Shown here piece after piece: positions 86 to 36,454 of a stretch of DNA of 64,000 nucleotides; position 1 is the stretch's first letter, and each line of letters begins with the position of its first letter. Source of the stretch: Lachnospiraceae bacterium (lineage in GTDB: Bacteria; Bacillota; Clostridia; Lachnospirales; Lachnospiraceae); contig JAFZRY010000025.1 in NCBI GenBank assembly GCA_017619615.1, positions 45,099 through 109,098 of the forward strand, read 5' to 3'. The position numbers and the translations under genes are program-made. Under the pieces are notes generated by a model. The model saw only the letters and a program-made list of their open reading frames with translations. It did no database searches and was not told the DNA's origin.

Positions 86-841
86 TTACCGGATCACCAG
101 CTCCACCGGGCAGTGGTCGGAGCCGAAGATCTCACTGTGGATCGCGGCGCTGACCAGGCGGTCCTTCAGGCTGTCCGAGACCACGAAATAGTCGATGCGC
201 CACCCCGCGTTCCGCTCCCGGGCGCGCATGCGGTAGGACCACCAGCTGTAGGCGTCTTTGAGGTCCGGGTAGAAGTACCGGAAGGTGTCCGTGAAACCGG
301 CGGCCAGGAGTTCGGAGAACTTGCCGCGCTCTTCGTCGGAGAAGCCGGCGTTCTGGTGGTTGGTGGCGGGGTTTTTCAGGTCGATCTCCTCGTGCGCGAC
401 GTTCAGGTCGCCGCAGAGGATCACGGGCTTGGTCTGCGCGAGGCGCGACAGGTAGGCGCGGAGGGCGTCCTCGAAGCGGCAGCGGTACTCCAGGCGCTTC
501 AAGCCGTCCTGCGAGTTGGGCGTGTAGCAGCAGACCAGGTATTCGTCCGGGAATTCGCAGGTGATGACGCGGCCTTCGTGGTCGTGCTCGTCGACCCCGA
601 TGCCGTACGTCACGGCCAGCGGCTCCTCCTTTGTCAGCACCAGCGTGCCCGAATAGCCCTTTTTGTCCGCATAATTCCAGTACGCGTGATACTGCGGCAG
701 CTCCAGTTCCACCTGTCCGGCCTGCAGCTTGGTCTCCTGCAGGCACAGGACGTCCGGGTCCAGCGCGGCGACCGCGTCGTAGAAGTTTTTGCCGAGGACG
801 GCGCGGAGGCCGTTCACGTTCCAGGAGATGAGTTTTTTCAC
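86..841 (-). CDS. xth: Exodeoxyribonuclease III (AP endonuclease)
   Basis: This 251-residue protein is an ExoIII/ExoA-type DNA repair nuclease that cuts at abasic sites and removes 3' blocking groups. The fold signatures are in order: SWNVNGLRA near residue 6 (Asn8), LQETK with the metal-binding Glu36, GDLNVAHEEID near residue 150, a WWSYR segment and the catalytic GSDHCP near the C terminus. Length matches Bacillus ExoA (about 252). I start it at GTG 841 because GAGG lies 9-12 bases upstream. A longer in-frame reading exists, but it would translate the palindromic repeat at 865-934 and gives residues foreign to the family. It is on the same strand as rny but beyond rny's terminator, so it is probably transcribed separately. 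Confidence 0.93.
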   Translation of the reverse strand: MKKLISWNVNGLRAVLGKNFYDAVAALDPDVLCLQETKLQAGQVELELPQYHAYWNYADKKGYSGTLVLTKEEPLAVTYGIGVDEHDHEGRVITCEFPDEYLVCCYTPNSQDGLKRLEYRCRFEDALRAYLSRLAQTKPVILCGDLNVAHEEIDLKNPATNHQNAGFSDEERGKFSELLAAGFTDTFRYFYPDLKDAYSWWSYRMRARERNAGWRIDYFVVSDSLKDRLVSAAIHSEIFGSDHCPVELVIR

Positions 842-864
842 GGGAAGATACCTCGCGGGGTGAG

Positions 865-934
865 CTGACAGGGGGACGGTTCCTTTGTCAGGTTTTTTGA
901 AGAAAAGCTGACAAAGGAACCGTCCCCCTGTCAG
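865..934. repeat. Paired 27-bp palindromic repeats (GGGGGACGGTTCC family)
   Basis: Two perfect 27-base arms, 865-891 and 908-934, are inverted copies of each other separated by 16 bases. Each arm is itself bounded by CTGACA and TGTCAG with GGGGGACGGTTCC inside. The same 27-mer recurs at 3556-3582 and 25460-25486, and with one mismatch at 4599-4625. The pair lies between xth and the rny terminator, immediately upstream of the xth ribosome binding site, so it may be in the xth leader. Confidence 0.9.
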
Positions 935-940
935 ATTCAA

Positions 941-2736: not shown

Positions 2737-5700
2737 TCATCTCTTGAAGTATTTCATCGCGGCTTCGAAGAGCTTCAGGTCGTATTCGCCGGGGACGTTT
2801 TTGTAGAGGTGGCGGCCGGTGCGCTCGCTGTGGCCCATCTTGCCGAGGATGCGGCCGTCCGGGGAGGTGAGGCCTTCGACGGCGAGGAGGGAGCCGTTCG
2901 GGTTGAACGCGATGTCGCGGCTGGGGAGGCCGGCATCGTCCACATAGCGGGTAGCGATCTGGTCGCCGTGCACGAGCTGCTCCAGCATGGCGTCCGGCGC
3001 GGTGAAGCGGCCTTCGCCGTGGGAGACCGGGACCGTGACGATGTCGCCCGGCTGCATCAGCGAGAGCCAGGGCGAGCGGACGGATTCGACGCGCGTGCGC
3101 ACGAGCCGGGACTGGTGGCGGCCGATGCTGTTGAAGGTCAGGGTCGGGAAATCCTCCTCCGCGTCCAGGATGCGGCCGGCGTGGATCAGGCCGAGCTTGA
3201 TCAGCGCCTGGAAGCCGTTGCAGATGCCCAGGATCAGGCCGCCGCGGCGGTCCATCAGGTCCATGACGCCCTCTTTCACCGCTTCATTGCGGAAGAACGC
3301 CGTAATGAACTTCGCGCTGCCTTCCGGCTCGTCGCCGCCCGAAAAACCGCCGGGGATGAAGATCCCCTGCGCCTCTTTCATCGCCTCCGCGAACTCTTCC
3401 ACCGAGCCCGCGATCTCCTGCGCGCTCCGGTTGCGGATCACCATCACCCGTGCCTTCATGCCCGCCTTTTCCACCGCGCGCGCGGAATCGAACTCGCAGT
3501 TCGTGCCCGGGAACACCGGGATCAGGAAGGACGGCGCGGCGTTCGGATGCAGGATCTGACAGGGGGACGGTTCCTTTGTCAGATTTTCCGCGGCGGCGGG
3601 AGCGGGCAGGGGCTGCACCGCCGTTTTCGGGGCGGGCGGAACATCGTTCAGCTTGTAGACGGGCTCCAGGCGGGCTTCGTAAAGAGTCTGAAGTTCCGTG
3701 AGGGAAACGCGGTCGTTCCCGCGAATCAGGGCTTCGTCAGAGACGGTGCGGCCGAGTTCGCGGCCGAGCTGTATGGTACCGGTCATTTCCAGGAGGAAGG
3801 AGCCCCAGGCGGGAGCAAAGAGGTCTTCCGCGGGGACCGAAGCGTCGAATTCCGCGCCGATGCGGTTGCCGAGCGCCATTTTGAAGACGGCGTCCGCAAT
3901 GCCGCCGCGGCCGAGTGCCCAGGCGGCGGCCGCTTTCTTTTCGCGCAGGAGTTTGGTGACCTGGGCGAAGATGATCTTCAGGCTGTCCGGGTCGGGCAGG
4001 CCGTTTTCGTCCCGTTCGGGGGCGAGCAGCACCAGGCGGTCGCCCGCTTCCTTGAATTCGGGGGAGGCGATCTGGCCCGTCTCTGCCGTGGTCACCGCGA
4101 ACGAGACCAGCGTGGGCGGGACGTGGATGTCCTCGAAGGACCCGCTCATGGAGTCCTTGCCGCCGATCGCGCCGTAGCCCAGGTCGAGCTGCGCCCGGAA
4201 CGCGCCGAGCAGCGCCGACAGCGGCTTGCCCCAGCGGTCCGGGTCGTGGCCGAGTTTTTCAAAATATTCCTGGAAGCTCAGGTACACGTCGTCAAAGCCC
4301 GCGCCGGCCGCCACCAGTTTGGAGACGGATTCCACGACGGCCAGGTAGGCGCCGCGGTAAGGGTCGGACTCGGACAGGTACGGGTCGAAGCCGTAGGCCA
4401 TCGCGGAACAGGTGTCGGTCTCGCCCTGCAGGACCGGGATCTTGTGGACCATGGCCTGGATGGGAGTCTTCTGGTACCGGCCGCCGAAGGGCATCAGGAC
4501 CGTGGCGGCGCCGATCGTGGAGTCGAAGCGCTCGGAGAGGCCCTGGCGGGAACAGAAGGAGAGGTCGGAGACCATGGCGCGGAGGGAGGCGGCGAAATCT
4601 GACACAGGAACCGTCCCCCTGTCAGATGCCGGCTTCGCCACGTGGGCGGCGGCTTCTTTGGGGGCGCCGTTGGAGTTCAGGAATTCGCGGCTGACGTCGA
4701 CGATGCGGGCGCCGTTCCAGGTCATGACGAGGCGCGGTTCTTTGGTGACGCGCGCGACGGGGACGGCGGAGAGGTTTTCCTGCGCGGCGAGGGCGAGGAA
4801 ATGGGTGAGGTCGGACGGGTCCACGACGACGGCCATGCGCTCCTGGGATTCGGAGATAGCGAGTTCCGTGCCGTCCAGGCCTTCGTATTTCTTGGGGACT
4901 TTGTCCAGGTCGATGGCGAGGCCGTCCGCCAGTTCGCCGATGGCGACGGAGACGCCGCCCGCGCCGAAGTCGTTGCAGCGCTTGATCAGGCGGGTCGCTT
5001 CGGGGTTGCGGAAGAGGCGCTGGAGCTTGCGTTCCTCAGGGGCGTTGCCCTTCTGGACTTCCGCGCCGCAGGTCTCTACGGAGTGGGAGTCGTGGGCCTT
5101 GGAGGAGCCCGTGGCGCCGCCGATGCCGTCGCGCCCGGTGGCGCCGCCCAGCAGGATCACCACGTCGCCGGGGACGGGCCGCTCGCGCCGCACGTTCTCC
5201 GCGGGCGCCGCCGCGATCACCGCGCCGATCTCCATGCGCTTGGCCGCATAGCCGGGGTGGTACAGTTCGTCCACGAGGCCCGTGGCCAGGCCGATCTGGT
5301 TGCCGTAGGACGAATAGCCCGCGGCCGCGCCGGTCACGATGCTGCGCTGCGGCAGTTTGCCCGGGATCGTCTCACTCAGCGGGACGGTCGGGTCCGCCGC
5401 GCCGGTCACGCGCATCGCGCCGTATACGTAAGCCCGGCCGGACAGCGGGTCGCGGATGGCCCCGCCGATGCAGGTTGCGGCGCCGCCGAACGGCTCGATC
5501 TCCGTCGGGTGATTGTGCGTTTCATTCTTGAAGAGCAGCAGCCAGGGCTCCTGCTTCCCGTCCACCCGCACGTCCATTTTCACGGTGCAGGCGTTGATCT
5601 CCTCGGATTCGTCCAGCTTGTCCAGCCGGCCCTGGCGCTTCAGTTCCTTCACAGCGACGGTGGCCAGGTCCATCAGGCAGACCGGCTTTTTCACCTTCAG

Positions 5701-6462
5701 TTCCTTGCGCAGCGCGAGATATTCTTCGTAGGTCTTCTGCACGCGCGGGTCGTCAAAGGTGACGTCGGTGAGTTCCGTGAGGAAGGTGGTGTGGCGGCAG
5801 TGATCGGACCAGTAGGTGTCGATCATGCGGATCTCCGTGATGGTGGGATCGCGCCGTTCTTTCTTAAAATAGGTCTGGCAGAAGGCGATGTCCTTCTCGT
5901 CCATCGCAAGGCCGTAGCGACGGATGAAGGCGGCCAGGCCGTCTTTGTCCAGGTCGCGGAAGCCGGTCAGCACGGCGACTTTGTCCGGGGCGTCGTACTG
6001 CATTTTCAGGGTCTCCGGCTTTTCGAGCGACGCTTCGCGGGCCTCGACGGGGTTGATCACGTGCTTTTTGAAGGCGGCCAGTTCCGCTTCGCCGATCTCC
6101 CCGTACAGGGCGTAGACGCGGGCCGACGCCACCGCCGGCCGGTCGCCCCGGGAGATGATCTGGATGCACTGGGCCGCGGAATCCGCCCGCTGGTCAAACT
6201 GTCCGGGCAGGAATTCCACCGCGAACACGGCGGCGCCGGCCAGGTCCGGCTCTTCGTACACAAAGTCCACCGAAGGGTCGGAAAACACATTCCGCACGGC
6301 GTTTTCAAACAGCGCCGGCGACACGTCCTCCACGTCGTAGCGGTTCAGGAGCCGCAGGCGGGTCACGCCGGACAGGCCCAGCAGGTCGCGGGCCTCCTGC
6401 AGCAGTTCGCGGGCGGCAAAATCATTGCCGGGCTTTTTTTCGACGAAAATACGGTAAACCAT
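2737..6462 (-). CDS. purL: Phosphoribosylformylglycinamidine synthase, single-chain
   Basis: This 1241-residue enzyme catalyses step 4 of purine synthesis, FGAR + Gln + ATP to FGAM. It joins synthetase and glutaminase in one chain, as in many Clostridia and Bacteroidetes. The N-terminal half carries YWSDHCRHTTF near residue 215 and the NETHNHPTEIEPFGGAATCIGG nucleotide-binding segment. The C-terminal glutaminase begins at FPGTNCEFD (about 993) and has the nucleophile in GICNGFQ (Cys near 1080) and the SHGEGRF histidine. The ATG at 6462 follows GGAAAGGA. Two regions (about residues 613-622 and 961-969) are translated copies of the GGGGGACGGTTCC palindromic repeat, both at apparent domain linkers, and the frame stays open. 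It is the last gene of the operon. Confidence 0.97.
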   Translation of the reverse strand: MVYRIFVEKKPGNDFAARELLQEARDLLGLSGVTRLRLLNRYDVEDVSPALFENAVRNVFSDPSVDFVYEEPDLAGAAVFAVEFLPGQFDQRADSAAQCIQIISRGDRPAVASARVYALYGEIGEAELAAFKKHVINPVEAREASLEKPETLKMQYDAPDKVAVLTGFRDLDKDGLAAFIRRYGLAMDEKDIAFCQTYFKKERRDPTITEIRMIDTYWSDHCRHTTFLTELTDVTFDDPRVQKTYEEYLALRKELKVKKPVCLMDLATVAVKELKRQGRLDKLDESEEINACTVKMDVRVDGKQEPWLLLFKNETHNHPTEIEPFGGAATCIGGAIRDPLSGRAYVYGAMRVTGAADPTVPLSETIPGKLPQRSIVTGAAAGYSSYGNQIGLATGLVDELYHPGYAAKRMEIGAVIAAAPAENVRRERPVPGDVVILLGGATGRDGIGGATGSSKAHDSHSVETCGAEVQKGNAPEERKLQRLFRNPEATRLIKRCNDFGAGGVSVAIGELADGLAIDLDKVPKKYEGLDGTELAISESQERMAVVVDPSDLTHFLALAAQENLSAVPVARVTKEPRLVMTWNGARIVDVSREFLNSNGAPKEAAAHVAKPASDRGTVPVSDFAASLRAMVSDLSFCSRQGLSERFDSTIGAATVLMPFGGRYQKTPIQAMVHKIPVLQGETDTCSAMAYGFDPYLSESDPYRGAYLAVVESVSKLVAAGAGFDDVYLSFQEYFEKLGHDPDRWGKPLSALLGAFRAQLDLGYGAIGGKDSMSGSFEDIHVPPTLVSFAVTTAETGQIASPEFKEAGDRLVLLAPERDENGLPDPDSLKIIFAQVTKLLREKKAAAAWALGRGGIADAVFKMALGNRIGAEFDASVPAEDLFAPAWGSFLLEMTGTIQLGRELGRTVSDEALIRGNDRVSLTELQTLYEARLEPVYKLNDVPPAPKTAVQPLPAPAAAENLTKEPSPCQILHPNAAPSFLIPVFPGTNCEFDSARAVEKAGMKARVMVIRNRSAQEIAGSVEEFAEAMKEAQGIFIPGGFSGGDEPEGSAKFITAFFRNEAVKEGVMDLMDRRGGLILGICNGFQALIKLGLIHAGRILDAEEDFPTLTFNSIGRHQSRLVRTRVESVRSPWLSLMQPGDIVTVPVSHGEGRFTAPDAMLEQLVHGDQIATRYVDDAGLPSRDIAFNPNGSLLAVEGLTSPDGRILGKMGHSERTGRHLYKNVPGEYDLKLFEAAMKYFKR
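3556..3582. repeat. Palindromic repeat copy inside purL (linker to glutaminase domain)
   Basis: This is a 27-base copy identical to the left arm of the 865-934 element. It lies inside the purL frame and is read as LTKEPSPCQ (residues about 961-969) between the synthetase and the glutaminase domain. Its length is a multiple of three, so it does not break the frame. Confidence 0.9.
4599..4625. repeat. Second palindromic repeat copy inside purL
   Basis: A 27-base copy with one mismatch, in the opposite orientation to the copy at 3556. It is read in the purL frame as about SDRGTVPVSD (residues 613-622), in a stretch just before the conserved LSERFDSTIGA segment. Confidence 0.88.
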
Positions 6463-15257: not shown

Positions 15258-15295
15258 AATAAAAAAGCACAGCAAAACAACCTGTTTTCCTGCGC
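15258..15295 (-). terminator. Riboswitch-controlled terminator in the purE leader
   Basis: A 13-bp stem with one mismatch (15267-15279 with 15283-15295, 3-base loop) is followed on the minus strand by TTTTTTATT. Its 5' strand overlaps the last bases of the conserved CTGGGC of the ZTP aptamer, so aptamer folding and terminator folding should compete. Confidence 0.85.
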
Positions 15296-15365
15296 CCAGA
15301 CGGTCGGCTTTCCATTTCTCTGTTCCCCCGGGGTGCTCCCCTATCCGTCAGTCGCAAAGAAACGC
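15292..15365 (-). ncRNA. ZTP (pfl-motif) riboswitch controlling the purine operon
   Basis: The minus-strand leader of purE carries the conserved parts of the ZTP/ZMP riboswitch: GACTGACGG, then a GGGG-CCCC hairpin followed by GGGGGAAC, then CCGTCTGGGC. Pairing supports it: P1 is GUUUCU (15358-15363) with AGAAAU (15314-15319), and the pseudoknot is GACGG (15345-15349) with CCGUC (15299-15303), a covarying form of the consensus GGCGG/CCGCC. The ligand ZMP/ZTP is AICAR phosphate, which builds up when 10-formyl-THF is short. It should turn on this operon by blocking the terminator at 15258-15295. Confidence 0.9.
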
Positions 15366-25459: not shown

Positions 25460-25486
25460 CTGACAAAGGAACCGTCCCCCTGTCAG
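25460..25486. repeat. Single 27-bp palindromic repeat (GGGGGACGGTTCC family)
   Basis: This copy is identical to the right arm at 908-934. Flanking GTGAATT and AATTCAC add further pairing. It lies between the M42 peptidase gene and the CIRCE element, where it could be a hairpin in either orientation. Confidence 0.88.
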
Positions 25487-26236: not shown

Positions 26237-26376
26237 AAAACAGAGCCACTGGGGGACGGTTCTTGGCGGCCCTGTTTTGTCAAACAGTGCCACTGAGGGA
26301 CGGTTCCCGGTGGCCCTGTTTTGTCAAAAAAGTGAGAATAGGACCACGAGGAACCGTCCCCGAATGGCATTGTTTC
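26237..26376. repeat. Cluster of three palindromic repeats with GGGACGGTTC core
   Basis: Three related units lie side by side: 26237-26278 and 26282-26322 in one orientation, and 26337-26376 inverted. Each has AAACAGnGCCAC-type arms that pair with GTGGCnCTGTTT and a central GGGACGGTTC. They differ by several substitutions, including compensatory ones in the arms, so they look like diverged copies. The last ends 5 bases from the activase stop codon. Confidence 0.85.
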
Positions 26377-34144: not shown

Positions 34145-36454
34145 ATGAAATACAATAAATACAGATTCAGGTTCCTGATGACGCTCGCCGTCACGGTGCT
34201 GCTGTTTGCTTTCGGACCCGCCCGTCCGACCCAGGCCGCGCCCGAAAAAGGCGCGAAGATCGCCGACGGCGTCTGGGCAGGCGATCTGGACCTGAGCGGC
34301 AAGACCGAAGACGAAGCCCGGCAGCTGCTGGAAGACTACTTCCGCGAAATGGAGCAGCGCACCCTGAAATTATACGTCTACGACAACTACGTCAACAAGG
34401 ACAACCCGGGCCGTACGGAAGGCCAGACCCTCCTGAACAGTTTCTCCGTTTCCTACTCCTCGCTGGGATTCACCTGGTCCGTAGAGGAGACCCTGCAGAA
34501 GGCCGTCTCCTACGGCCAGACCGGCAAGCTGATCCAGCGCTACAAAGACCTGCAGAACCTGAAGTACGACAAGGCCGTCCTGCCCCTGGAATACGGCATC
34601 AACGGCCAGACGATCTATAATTACATCGCCCAGAACGTCAGTCCCGAAGTCGACCACGGCGCCACGGAAGCCCGCATCGCCGTCAGTTATCCCAACATCT
34701 ACGTCACTGCGGAAGCCTCCCACGGCATCAGCGTCAACGTCGGCGTCACCGCGGAAAAGATCCAGCTCCTGTTCAGCGACGGGATCCCCGAAGATTCCAG
34801 CATCACCGTTTCCGTCTCCTATCAGGATCCGCTCAATTCCACCGCGGATTACTCCAAGATGAACGCCGTGCTGGGCGAATACACCACGCTCGTGGAACTG
34901 ACGGAAGAGACCCGGAACCGCACGCACAACATCACGCTGGAGATGGAGATCCTGAACGGCACCATCGTGATGCCCGGCGAAGTCTTCTCCATCTGGGGCA
35001 TCATGGGCAACACCACCGCGGACAAGGGCTTCCTGCCCGCCGGCGCGTTCCAGCCGGGCGGCCGCATGGCCGATGAAGAGGGCGGCGGCGTCTGCCAGGG
35101 CAGCACCACCATCTACTGCGCGGCGCTGCGGGCGGAGATGGAGATCGTGGAACGCTTCGCGCACTCCATGGTCATTTCCTACGTCCCCTTTGCGCAGGAC
35201 TGCGCGCTGGCCTGGGACTACAAGGATCTGAAGTTCCGCAACAACACGGACGCTCCCATCTACCTGGAGACCTTCGTGGAAGGCAACCGCGTGGTGGCCC
35301 GCATCTACGGCCATGAGACCCGGCCCGCCAACCGCTCCCTGGTCTTTGAGACCACGGTCACCAAGCGCGAGATCTACGGTCCCCGCTACTGGCTGAACCA
35401 CAACGCCAACCCGGGCAAGCCCGAGGTGACCGGCGGCATCCACATGGAGGCGGAAGCGTACTGCACCAAGAAGGTACTGGTCGACGGCGTCGTCGTCAGT
35501 GAGGAAGTGATCGCGGACGATCACTACAGGCCCGAGCAGCAGACCGTCGCCATCGGCTGCAACATGCTCGAACTCTACGTCCGCGGCGATGAATACCACG
35601 AAAAGGTCTACGACGCCAACAACAACCAGCTGCTGGTGGACAAGGACGGCATTCCTTATTACAACGGCACCAACGGCTATCTGCTGGTGAAGGATTACCA
35701 GGCCGATTCCGAAGGCCACGCGATCCTGGACGCCCAGGGCCGGCCGATTGCCCGCTCGGGCCAGCCGACCACCGAGTCTCCGGAAGAGCATCCCTGCTCG
35801 CTGCCGCGATACAAGGGCCGCTTCGACGTGGACGACTATGTGGCCGAGCTGGGTCTCCGCCAGCTGGTCGTCATCCAGGTCAAGACCGTTGCCAGCAAGA
35901 CCGCCAAGGGCGAGATCTGCTGGGTGACCTATGAAGACGGCGAGACCGCCGTCCCGGTCGGCTCCAACCTGGAACCCGGCACCAAAGTCATCGTCTATGT
36001 GAGCGGCGGCAAGGACTACTCGCCTACGGATCCGACCACGGAAGCACCGACGGAAGCTCCGACTGAGCCGCCGACGGAAGCTCCTACCGAGCCGCCGACT
36101 GAAGCTCCCACCGAGCCGCCGACTGAGGCTCCTACTGAGCCGCCGACGGAAGCGCCGACTGAACCGCCTACGGAAGCGCCTACCGAACCGCCGACCACGG
36201 AAGCTTCCCTGCCGACGATGCCTACCTACGCCGGCCGCCCGATCTCCGAGCTTTTCGCGGAACTGACCGGTATGGGCGTGCCTGAGGATGATATCGTCAT
36301 TATCTACGGTACCTCCCAGGATCATCCCGAAAAGGACGCCGTCTACTTTGTCTCCAAGACGGACAAGGTTGAAGGCAAATCCGAAATCAAGCCCGGCACG
36401 GAATTAGTCCCCGGCAAAAAGATCTACATCTTCGTCAACAAAGGGGAAGACTGA
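34145..36454 (+). CDS. Secreted VanW-domain protein with Thr-Glu-Pro linker and PASTA-like tail
   Basis: A 769-residue envelope protein. A signal peptide covers about residues 1-36. Then come a peptidoglycan-binding-like region (about 40-250), a VanW domain (about 255-385, with MPGEVFSIWGIMG and GGGVCQGSTTIY), and a G5-like stretch (about 420-480). A short PASTA-like segment ends in GEICWVTYEDGETAVPVGS. A repetitive Pro/Thr/Glu linker lies at about 628-686, and a final module of about 80 residues begins LPTMPTYAGRPISELFAEL. That module is almost the same as the end of the PASTA kinase at 43892-46684. The role is unknown; cell-wall attachment or remodelling is likely. ATG 34145 is chosen from the promoter position and the signal-peptide start. 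Confidence 0.85.
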   Translation: MKYNKYRFRFLMTLAVTVLLFAFGPARPTQAAPEKGAKIADGVWAGDLDLSGKTEDEARQLLEDYFREMEQRTLKLYVYDNYVNKDNPGRTEGQTLLNSFSVSYSSLGFTWSVEETLQKAVSYGQTGKLIQRYKDLQNLKYDKAVLPLEYGINGQTIYNYIAQNVSPEVDHGATEARIAVSYPNIYVTAEASHGISVNVGVTAEKIQLLFSDGIPEDSSITVSVSYQDPLNSTADYSKMNAVLGEYTTLVELTEETRNRTHNITLEMEILNGTIVMPGEVFSIWGIMGNTTADKGFLPAGAFQPGGRMADEEGGGVCQGSTTIYCAALRAEMEIVERFAHSMVISYVPFAQDCALAWDYKDLKFRNNTDAPIYLETFVEGNRVVARIYGHETRPANRSLVFETTVTKREIYGPRYWLNHNANPGKPEVTGGIHMEAEAYCTKKVLVDGVVVSEEVIADDHYRPEQQTVAIGCNMLELYVRGDEYHEKVYDANNNQLLVDKDGIPYYNGTNGYLLVKDYQADSEGHAILDAQGRPIARSGQPTTESPEEHPCSLPRYKGRFDVDDYVAELGLRQLVVIQVKTVASKTAKGEICWVTYEDGETAVPVGSNLEPGTKVIVYVSGGKDYSPTDPTTEAPTEAPTEPPTEAPTEPPTEAPTEPPTEAPTEPPTEAPTEPPTEAPTEPPTTEASLPTMPTYAGRPISELFAELTGMGVPEDDIVIIYGTSQDHPEKDAVYFVSKTDKVEGKSEIKPGTELVPGKKIYIFVNKGED
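36040..36200 (+). repeat. In-frame tandem repeat encoding PTEAPTEP
   Basis: About six units of 24 bases encode PTEAPTEP in the VanW protein. Third-codon positions vary between units, so the protein repeat is kept while the DNA has drifted. It forms an extended surface linker before the last module. Confidence 0.9.

Follow-up and report, generated by a model that had tools for sequence, protein, structure and literature searches.

Two copies of a short palindrome that is dispersed through the genome of a Lachnospiraceae bacterium lie in frame within its purL gene, one in each orientation, at two inter-domain linkers of the encoded enzyme. The explanation that best fits the observations, and in which we have good confidence, is that these segments are REP elements moved by a RAYT transposase and kept in permissive linkers. 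The DNA analysed, referred to here as the window, is a stretch of 64 kb from the genome denoted G000. The 27-mer CTGACAGGGGGACGGTTCCTTTGTCAG, copies of which are called REP copies below, occurs in it five times at up to three mismatches, against none in each of 100 shuffles, confirming the preliminary description, which had reported the element in intergenic DNA and twice inside purL, once in each orientation (Table 1). Frame, position and the genome-wide distribution of the repeat all support the presence of an in-frame dispersed palindrome at the PurL linkers.

Table 1. Positions of the host gene and of the hairpin elements in the window.
Feature	Position	Strand	Basis
REP copy, intergenic, left arm of head-to-head pair	865..891	+	27-mer search
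REP copy, intergenic, right arm of head-to-head pair	908..934	-	27-mer search
purL, phosphoribosylformylglycinamidine synthase, 1241 aa, host of both in-frame REP copies	2737..6462	-	ORF and TIGR01857
REP copy in purL linker 2, antisense to purL	3555..3588	+	27-mer at 3556-3582 and ATTTTC tail
REP copy in purL linker 1, sense with purL	4599..4625	-	27-mer search, 1 mismatch
REP copy, intergenic, upstream of ORF resembling a small heat-shock gene (by eye)	25460..25486	-	27-mer search
Second hairpin type, shared GGGACGGTTC core, different stem; two 44-nt tandem units, cores at 26253 and 26297	26238..26325	+	Repeat search

The purL ORF is unbroken and its product matches TIGR01857 with 1771 bits over residues 4-1239. 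The linker-1 copy is read within SDRGTVPVSD (residues 613-622) and the linker-2 copy as LTKEPSPCQ (residues 961-969), just ahead of the glutaminase domain (PF13507, from residue 977). Judged from the sequence, the REP DNA is presumably translated as flexible linker peptide. Across 14 PurL proteins of the genus the two linkers are the least conserved 30-residue windows, scoring 0.30 and 0.43 where the mean is 0.79, in a measure that scores gaps as non-conserved and in which the inserts themselves lower the linker values. The two copies also form the arms of an inverted repeat (3554-3586 and 4595-4627; 33 nt, 97% complementary) about 1 kb apart on one transcript, so recombination could invert the intervening segment and the mRNA could pair with itself.

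Thirty-four copies outside purL that carry the window's stem give the consensus aTCTGACAGGGGGACGGTTCCTTTGTCAGaTTTTc, where lower-case letters have a majority of only 45-60%; as these copies were picked by the GACA..GTC stem pattern, conservation of the stem is by construction. The linker-2 copy is identical to the majority-letter sequence TCTGACAGGGGGACGGTTCCTTTGTCAGATTTTC across all 34 nt. The 27-mer can be read through in four of its six frames, so that an open frame inside purL is not improbable. Taken singly the 27-mer is an imperfect and weak hairpin (DNA fold of -4.4 to -6.0 kcal/mol, z -2.3 to -3.2); paired head to head at 865-934, two copies fold very strongly (-39 kcal/mol, z -14.8). 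Besides such pairs there are tandem arrangements, with hairpin units spaced 32 nt apart in relatives. GTAG is absent from both strands of the consensus, and CGTC is found only internally on the reverse strand, with no unpaired CGTC at an end. Near the tandem pair of the second hairpin type lies an inverted unit of the same type, within 26238-26366. The longest ORF over an Exo_endo_phos gene (86-940, minus strand) runs through the head-to-head pair at its N-terminus; the true start is probably downstream of the pair, and automatic annotation could therefore wrongly take in REP residues. A scan of positions 1-27000 for RNA families returned only a ZMP/ZTP riboswitch aptamer (15287-15365, minus strand, 52.4 bits) and assigned the REP elements to no known family. 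The window also holds an array of 12-nt units (CCGACGGAAGCT-like) at 36021-36212, and palindromes of the form GGGCCGTTG..CAACGGCCC often stand beside REPs in several G000 loci (L001-L030).

The 13-nt core GGGGGACGGTTCC occurs 55 times in the 1.98-Mb genome (27 forward, 28 reverse; reversed control 0) and GGGACGGTTC 149 times (control 1); the hairpin copies are numerous and mainly extragenic, as is usual for REPs. A search of the genome_contigs collection, from which the window's own genome or a very near one may be left out, found the exact 27-mer in 70 stretches of four Lachnospiraceae MAGs: RGIG2635, RGIG2734, RGIG2725 (goat omasum) and RUG14193. No exact match to the inner 25-mer was present in viral_contigs, leaving carriage by phage unsupported.

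Coding on the flanks of each copy was assessed with a hexamer model trained on 73 G000 ORFs. Only two of the 55 copies of the 13-mer, both in purL, had same-frame coding on both sides; one (L017) had coding in different frames, 16 had it on one side only and 36 on neither. The purL copies were likewise the only clearly coding ones, in all three settings, among the 126 of the 149 GGGACGGTTC copies that were tested. L252 was same-frame in two of three settings and lies inside an NFACT gene according to a domain scan, a core without the stem that may be there by chance. L024 was same-frame in one setting, with a stop preceding the element, and the coding flanks of L017 (two of three settings) and L243 (three of three) were in different frames. 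The same model was applied to 77 loci of relatives (the 70 stretches with the 27-mer and L032, L033, L045, L061, L081, L084 and L177), mostly selected by the 27-mer. Of their 155 copies away from an end, two were same-frame, the orthologous purL copies of G011, and two were different-frame, both at L133; a further 16 copies were too near an end. In a separate scan L222 was flagged as same-frame, but a stop lies inside it. The search of this genome and its sisters that had been suggested earlier yields a dispersed repeat whose clearly coding copies, among those tested, are only in purL. Since in-gene copies are almost confined to that gene, coding DNA is not freely colonised by the element, and the earlier suggestion of a mobile palindrome able to do so is unsupported, with two clearly coding copies among 126 in G000 and only their G011 orthologues among 155 in the relatives.

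A PurL match was found in 15 of the 16 genomes of the genus, G000 included; G008 lacks one, and the match in G015 is partial and spans both linker sites. Both REP segments are carried by G000 and by its closest relative, G011 (PurL 98% identical), and by none of the other 13 genomes with PurL. In the alignment with relatives that the preliminary description had proposed, the segments are missing from repeat-poor ones: G002, G003, G005, G006, G009, G013 and G014, with 2-11 GGGGACGGTTC copies each, have no REP residues at either linker. G004 and G015 are repeat-rich (105 and 92 GGGGACGGTTC copies) and their PurL linkers are diverged and without the REP, barring a stretch in linker 1 of G015. This stretch, GGGGACGGTCCTTCCGTCCGATTT, is partly REP-like and in the same frame, and matches none of the six G015 loci compared; from its sequence it may be a decayed REP. 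PurL residues 946-974 also match contig 46 of G011, at a place that proved to be another REP array, upstream of the start of an ORF that we take to be GroES-like.

The preliminary description had proposed that each copy added about nine residues, and this holds for linker 2 but not for linker 1. Between fixed landmarks linker 2 measures 59 residues in G000 against 49 in five of the six repeat-poor relatives measured (53 in the other), whereas linker 1 measures 52 against 51 in four of the six (54 and 55 in the others), so that a clear net gain in length is seen only at linker 2. The linkers of the relatives are too diverged for a clean empty insertion site to be read. For this reason, and with almost no net gain at linker 1, insertion followed by trimming, or replacement, must be assumed. 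One codon in linker 1 has departed from the TTG of the repeat consensus in both genomes, to GTG in G000 and to TCG in G011, which indicates that both lineages altered it after they split.

Eight RAYT-like ORFs in the relatives stand among hairpins with the core GGGGACGGTTC on both sides, those between inverted copies of the 27-mer being about 270 residues long. RAYT-b of G011 and of G004 has inverted copies of the window's 27-mer on both sides, and RAYT-b of G015 has the 27-mer on one side and a variant stem, GTGACA..TGTCAC, on the other. The hairpins that flank RAYT-a of G011, G004 and G010 are AAGACAGGGGACGGTTCTCTGTCTT or close variants, those of the G001 RAYT are GGGACACGGGGACGGTTCTTTCCGTCCC, and those of the RAYT of G039, from another family of the order, are GTGATACAATGGGGACGGTTCTTTTTGTATCAC. 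The core GGGGACGGTTC is therefore common to the RAYT types, and the stem goes with the type. The RAYT proteins exceed the cut-off of PF01797 in the genome profile search, four of them again in a Pfam scan. When six of the eight were scanned against NCBIfam, the sole match of each was NF047646 (REP-associated tyrosine transposase), at 56-78 bits against a curated cut-off of 80.

Within the genus the number of GGGGACGGTTC copies follows the presence of a long RAYT, with 41-138 copies in the five genomes that have one against 2-116 in the 11 that do not (exact Mann-Whitney p 0.0027, in a comparison that ignores the relatedness of the genomes and classes G009 as without a long RAYT, its PF01797 matches being short, high-scoring ones of IS200 type). 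Of the 11, G000 itself departs from the pattern, with 116 copies. Beyond the genus the association is less tight, G024 combining 122 core copies with the lack of any PF01797 match. Of the other PF01797 loci, the three examined (in G056, G019 and G030) have no core copy around them.

A linked transposase of the Y1/RAYT type, which the preliminary description had suggested looking for, is thus found between hairpin copies in G011, G004 and G015 but not in full in the window's own assembly (90.8% complete), where there is only a 44-position match of IS200 type; about 9% of that genome is unassembled. At the syntenic places G000 is without both RAYT genes: 980 and 1135 bp of G011 correspond to 78 and 265 bp (L229, G000 C21:44000-62000, against L230, G011 C20:8000-26000; aligned pieces longer than 150 bp kept). 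The two G011 genes are about 6 kb apart, and the DNA around them is 85-96% identical to that of G000. The two genomes differ in length twice more within the same 18 kb (1867 against 232 bp and 727 against 113 bp in G011 and G000, respectively), marking the region as rich in insertions and deletions. Because RAYT-b is also present in G004 and G015, its loss from G000 is the simpler reading.

It would seem, then, that the purL segments are non-autonomous hairpins of REP type, some 27-34 nt long, belonging to a RAYT system, and that the RAYT (a Y1/HUH, IS200-like transposase) lying between copies of the same hairpin in relatives most likely moved them. The two insertions, one per orientation, would date from the common ancestor of G000 and G011 and would have hit the two PurL linkers of lowest conservation; the copies would since have been trimmed and have decayed. 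The DNA would now be read as linker peptide, an insertion that was probably neutral for the enzyme. The copies may have been kept because most frames (four of six) are open and because very different sequences are tolerated in the linkers. Of these steps, the dispersed repeat, its in-frame position, its absence from repeat-poor relatives, the RAYT among the hairpins of relatives and the low conservation of the linkers are direct observations.

In sister species other repeats occupy these PurL linkers, and also linkers of HtpG, a pattern that the preliminary description had missed. Both PurL linkers carry in-frame dispersed repeats in G000/G011, in G001 and in G012, from at least three repeat families, and both probably do so in G007. 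G001 uses a set of its own: CCTGAGC..GTCGAAGG or CCTGAGCG..AAGGATCC, CTTCGACAGGCTCAGG, and CCCTCTCCC..GGGAGAGGG. Over a stretch of 100 bp its two linkers agree at 97 of 100 positions, with a different reading frame in each, open in both cases; CTTCGACAGGCTCAGG has 35 copies genome-wide (control 0), of which purL contains two. Palindromes of the CCTCCCCC type lie in both PurL linkers of G012 and at 40 places in its genome (control 0). In G007 they occur at 39 places, and the match in the PurL linkers is weaker than in G012; the comparison loci, five for each of these two genomes, were chosen by the CCTCCCCC-type pattern, so that the match of the core is by construction. The CCCTCTCCC palindrome is read in one frame in linker 1 of G001 and in another in linker 1 of G007, an indication that the events were separate. 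G012 is placed with G009 and G010 in the PurL tree (support 0.89 and 1.0), and the branching of G001 and G007 has a support of only 0.23. The purL loci of G009 and G010, compared for these motifs, contain neither CCCTCYCCC nor GGGRGAGGG.

A second housekeeping protein with this pattern is HtpG (Pfam HSP90), whose linkers contain dispersed repeats in frame in G001 (L264) and G012 (L270). One 54-nt block is present in both HtpG linkers of G012. In G001, linker 1 contains two CTTCGACAGGCTCAGG units and a GTAG palindrome, and linker 2 contains two GTAG palindromes (CCCGTAGGGGTCGATCCCCAGATCGACCCGCAG) that match nothing else in the G001 DNA compared, in which other GTAGGGGC palindromes are present. 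No REP of the 27-mer family is found in the HtpG linkers of G000 and G011. Further in-frame repeats of G001 lie in linker-like stretches of a solute-binding protein and of a protein with List_Bact repeats.

The choice of sites might be explained by filtering alone, with elements landing everywhere, most in-gene copies being purged and the purL linkers being unusually tolerant, so that neither targeting nor function need be invoked. We regard this as reasonably probable, and it is compatible with the RAYT/REP explanation, to which it adds an account of the sites. It agrees with the sites being the least conserved parts of PurL, with the near absence of in-gene copies outside purL and with the linker-like setting of the other in-frame repeats of G001 (HtpG, the solute-binding protein and the List_Bact-repeat protein). 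However, both clearly coding copies are in a single gene that makes up an estimated 0.2% or so of the coding DNA (3.7 kb in about 1.75 Mb), and repeats have landed in purL in three or four lineages, a pattern that tolerance alone may not account for in full. A broader proposal, on which our judgement is close to balanced though somewhat sceptical, is that inter-domain linkers of housekeeping proteins such as PurL and HtpG are repeatedly rebuilt from the active palindrome family of each species, with both linkers being hit.

It is also conceivable, if in our estimation unlikely, that the linkers of purL (and htpG) are a targeted or selected hot spot that attracts or retains repeats for a reason, be it a preferred single-stranded target, local copying from linker to linker, or some influence that the hairpin has on the purL mRNA. 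Two coding copies in so small a share of the coding DNA, together with the filling of both linkers in three or four lineages (G000/G011, G001, G012 and probably G007) by at least three families, hint at this. The near-identical 100-bp stretch in the two PurL linkers of G001, the 54-nt block shared by the HtpG linkers of G012 and the complementarity of the two G000 copies within one transcript would each fit with it. Against it stand two repeat-rich genomes: the PurL linkers of G004 (105 core copies) hold no repeat with respect to the loci compared, barring matches of 15-19 nt, and those of G010 (100 copies) show no core on inspection by eye. That a chance or ancestral protein sequence simply resembles the repeat can be dismissed, the partly similar GGGGACGGTCCTTCCGTCCGATTT in the same frame in linker 1 of G015 notwithstanding, given an expectation of 0 for the 27-mer in the shuffles, the 0 of the reversed 13-mer control, the match to the majority letters over 34 nt and the seven repeat-poor members of the genus without the residues.

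Several parts of this picture have precedents. The main text of PMC3733652 describes intragenic REPs of GTAG and CGTC type, short palindromes that are mostly intergenic and in some cases entirely within ORFs; it includes double insertions in one gene (uvrA, uvrB) and different REPs near the same recB site in two Xanthomonas species, and flexible linkers are proposed as a reason for their tolerance. That main text makes no mention of Clostridi, Firmicutes, Lachnospir or purL. The purL element differs from those REPs in having no terminal GTAG and no terminal CGTC, and in that the same linkers of a single gene have been occupied by no fewer than three repeat families within one genus. Unlike CGTC REPs, which have an unpaired CGTC at the end and no dedicated transposase, it has no such end and a RAYT lies between its copies. 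The Rickettsia palindromic elements (RPEs), as portrayed in PMC10969869, are in-frame palindromes of about 150 bp that are translated in genes, nearly half of them lying in ORFs. The purL element resembles them as a palindrome in frame in a housekeeping gene, where it is probably translated, but it is only 27-34 nt long, two of its 126 tested copies are clearly coding, and a RAYT lies between its copies in relatives.

A further likeness is to the RAYT/TnpAREP REPtrons (PMC8266576), in which a Y1 transposase gene stands among copies of a genome-dispersed hairpin. Here G011 and G004 have a RAYT gene with the same hairpin on both sides; in G015 the stem on one side is a variant. Published REPs are there said to be preceded by a tetranucleotide that is most often GTAG; as GTAG is only the most frequent form, its absence argues against membership of the GTAG class and not against a REPtron. 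In contrast to those REPs, the invariant part of the present hairpins is GGGGACGGTTC in mid-hairpin, and the stems vary between RAYT types. Intragenic REPs, double insertions, in-frame RPEs and the biology of TnpAREP are therefore already known. As far as the literature searches show, three things appear new: the occurrence in this taxon, a RAYT hairpin that has GGGGACGGTTC at its centre and lacks GTAG, and the way in which the same PurL linkers, and those of HtpG, have been refilled time and again with different repeats in a single genus. Among the matches listed for the GGGACGGTTC string none concerned bacterial repeats by title, and among those listed for purL with palindromic repeats none concerned a purL-linker case by title.

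The genus brings the transposase gene, the element, its target sites and close relatives into view in one system, which permits the question of whether the linkers of housekeeping proteins merely tolerate mobile DNA or act as hot spots where it collects. The RAYT lineage seen here is one in which GGGGACGGTTC in the middle of the hairpins is the common feature, in place of a flanking GTAG. The case suggests that mobile DNA can supply linker peptide repeatedly at the same places, and, if linkers are indeed rebuilt in this way, mobile hairpins would be a standing source of linker sequence in the genus.
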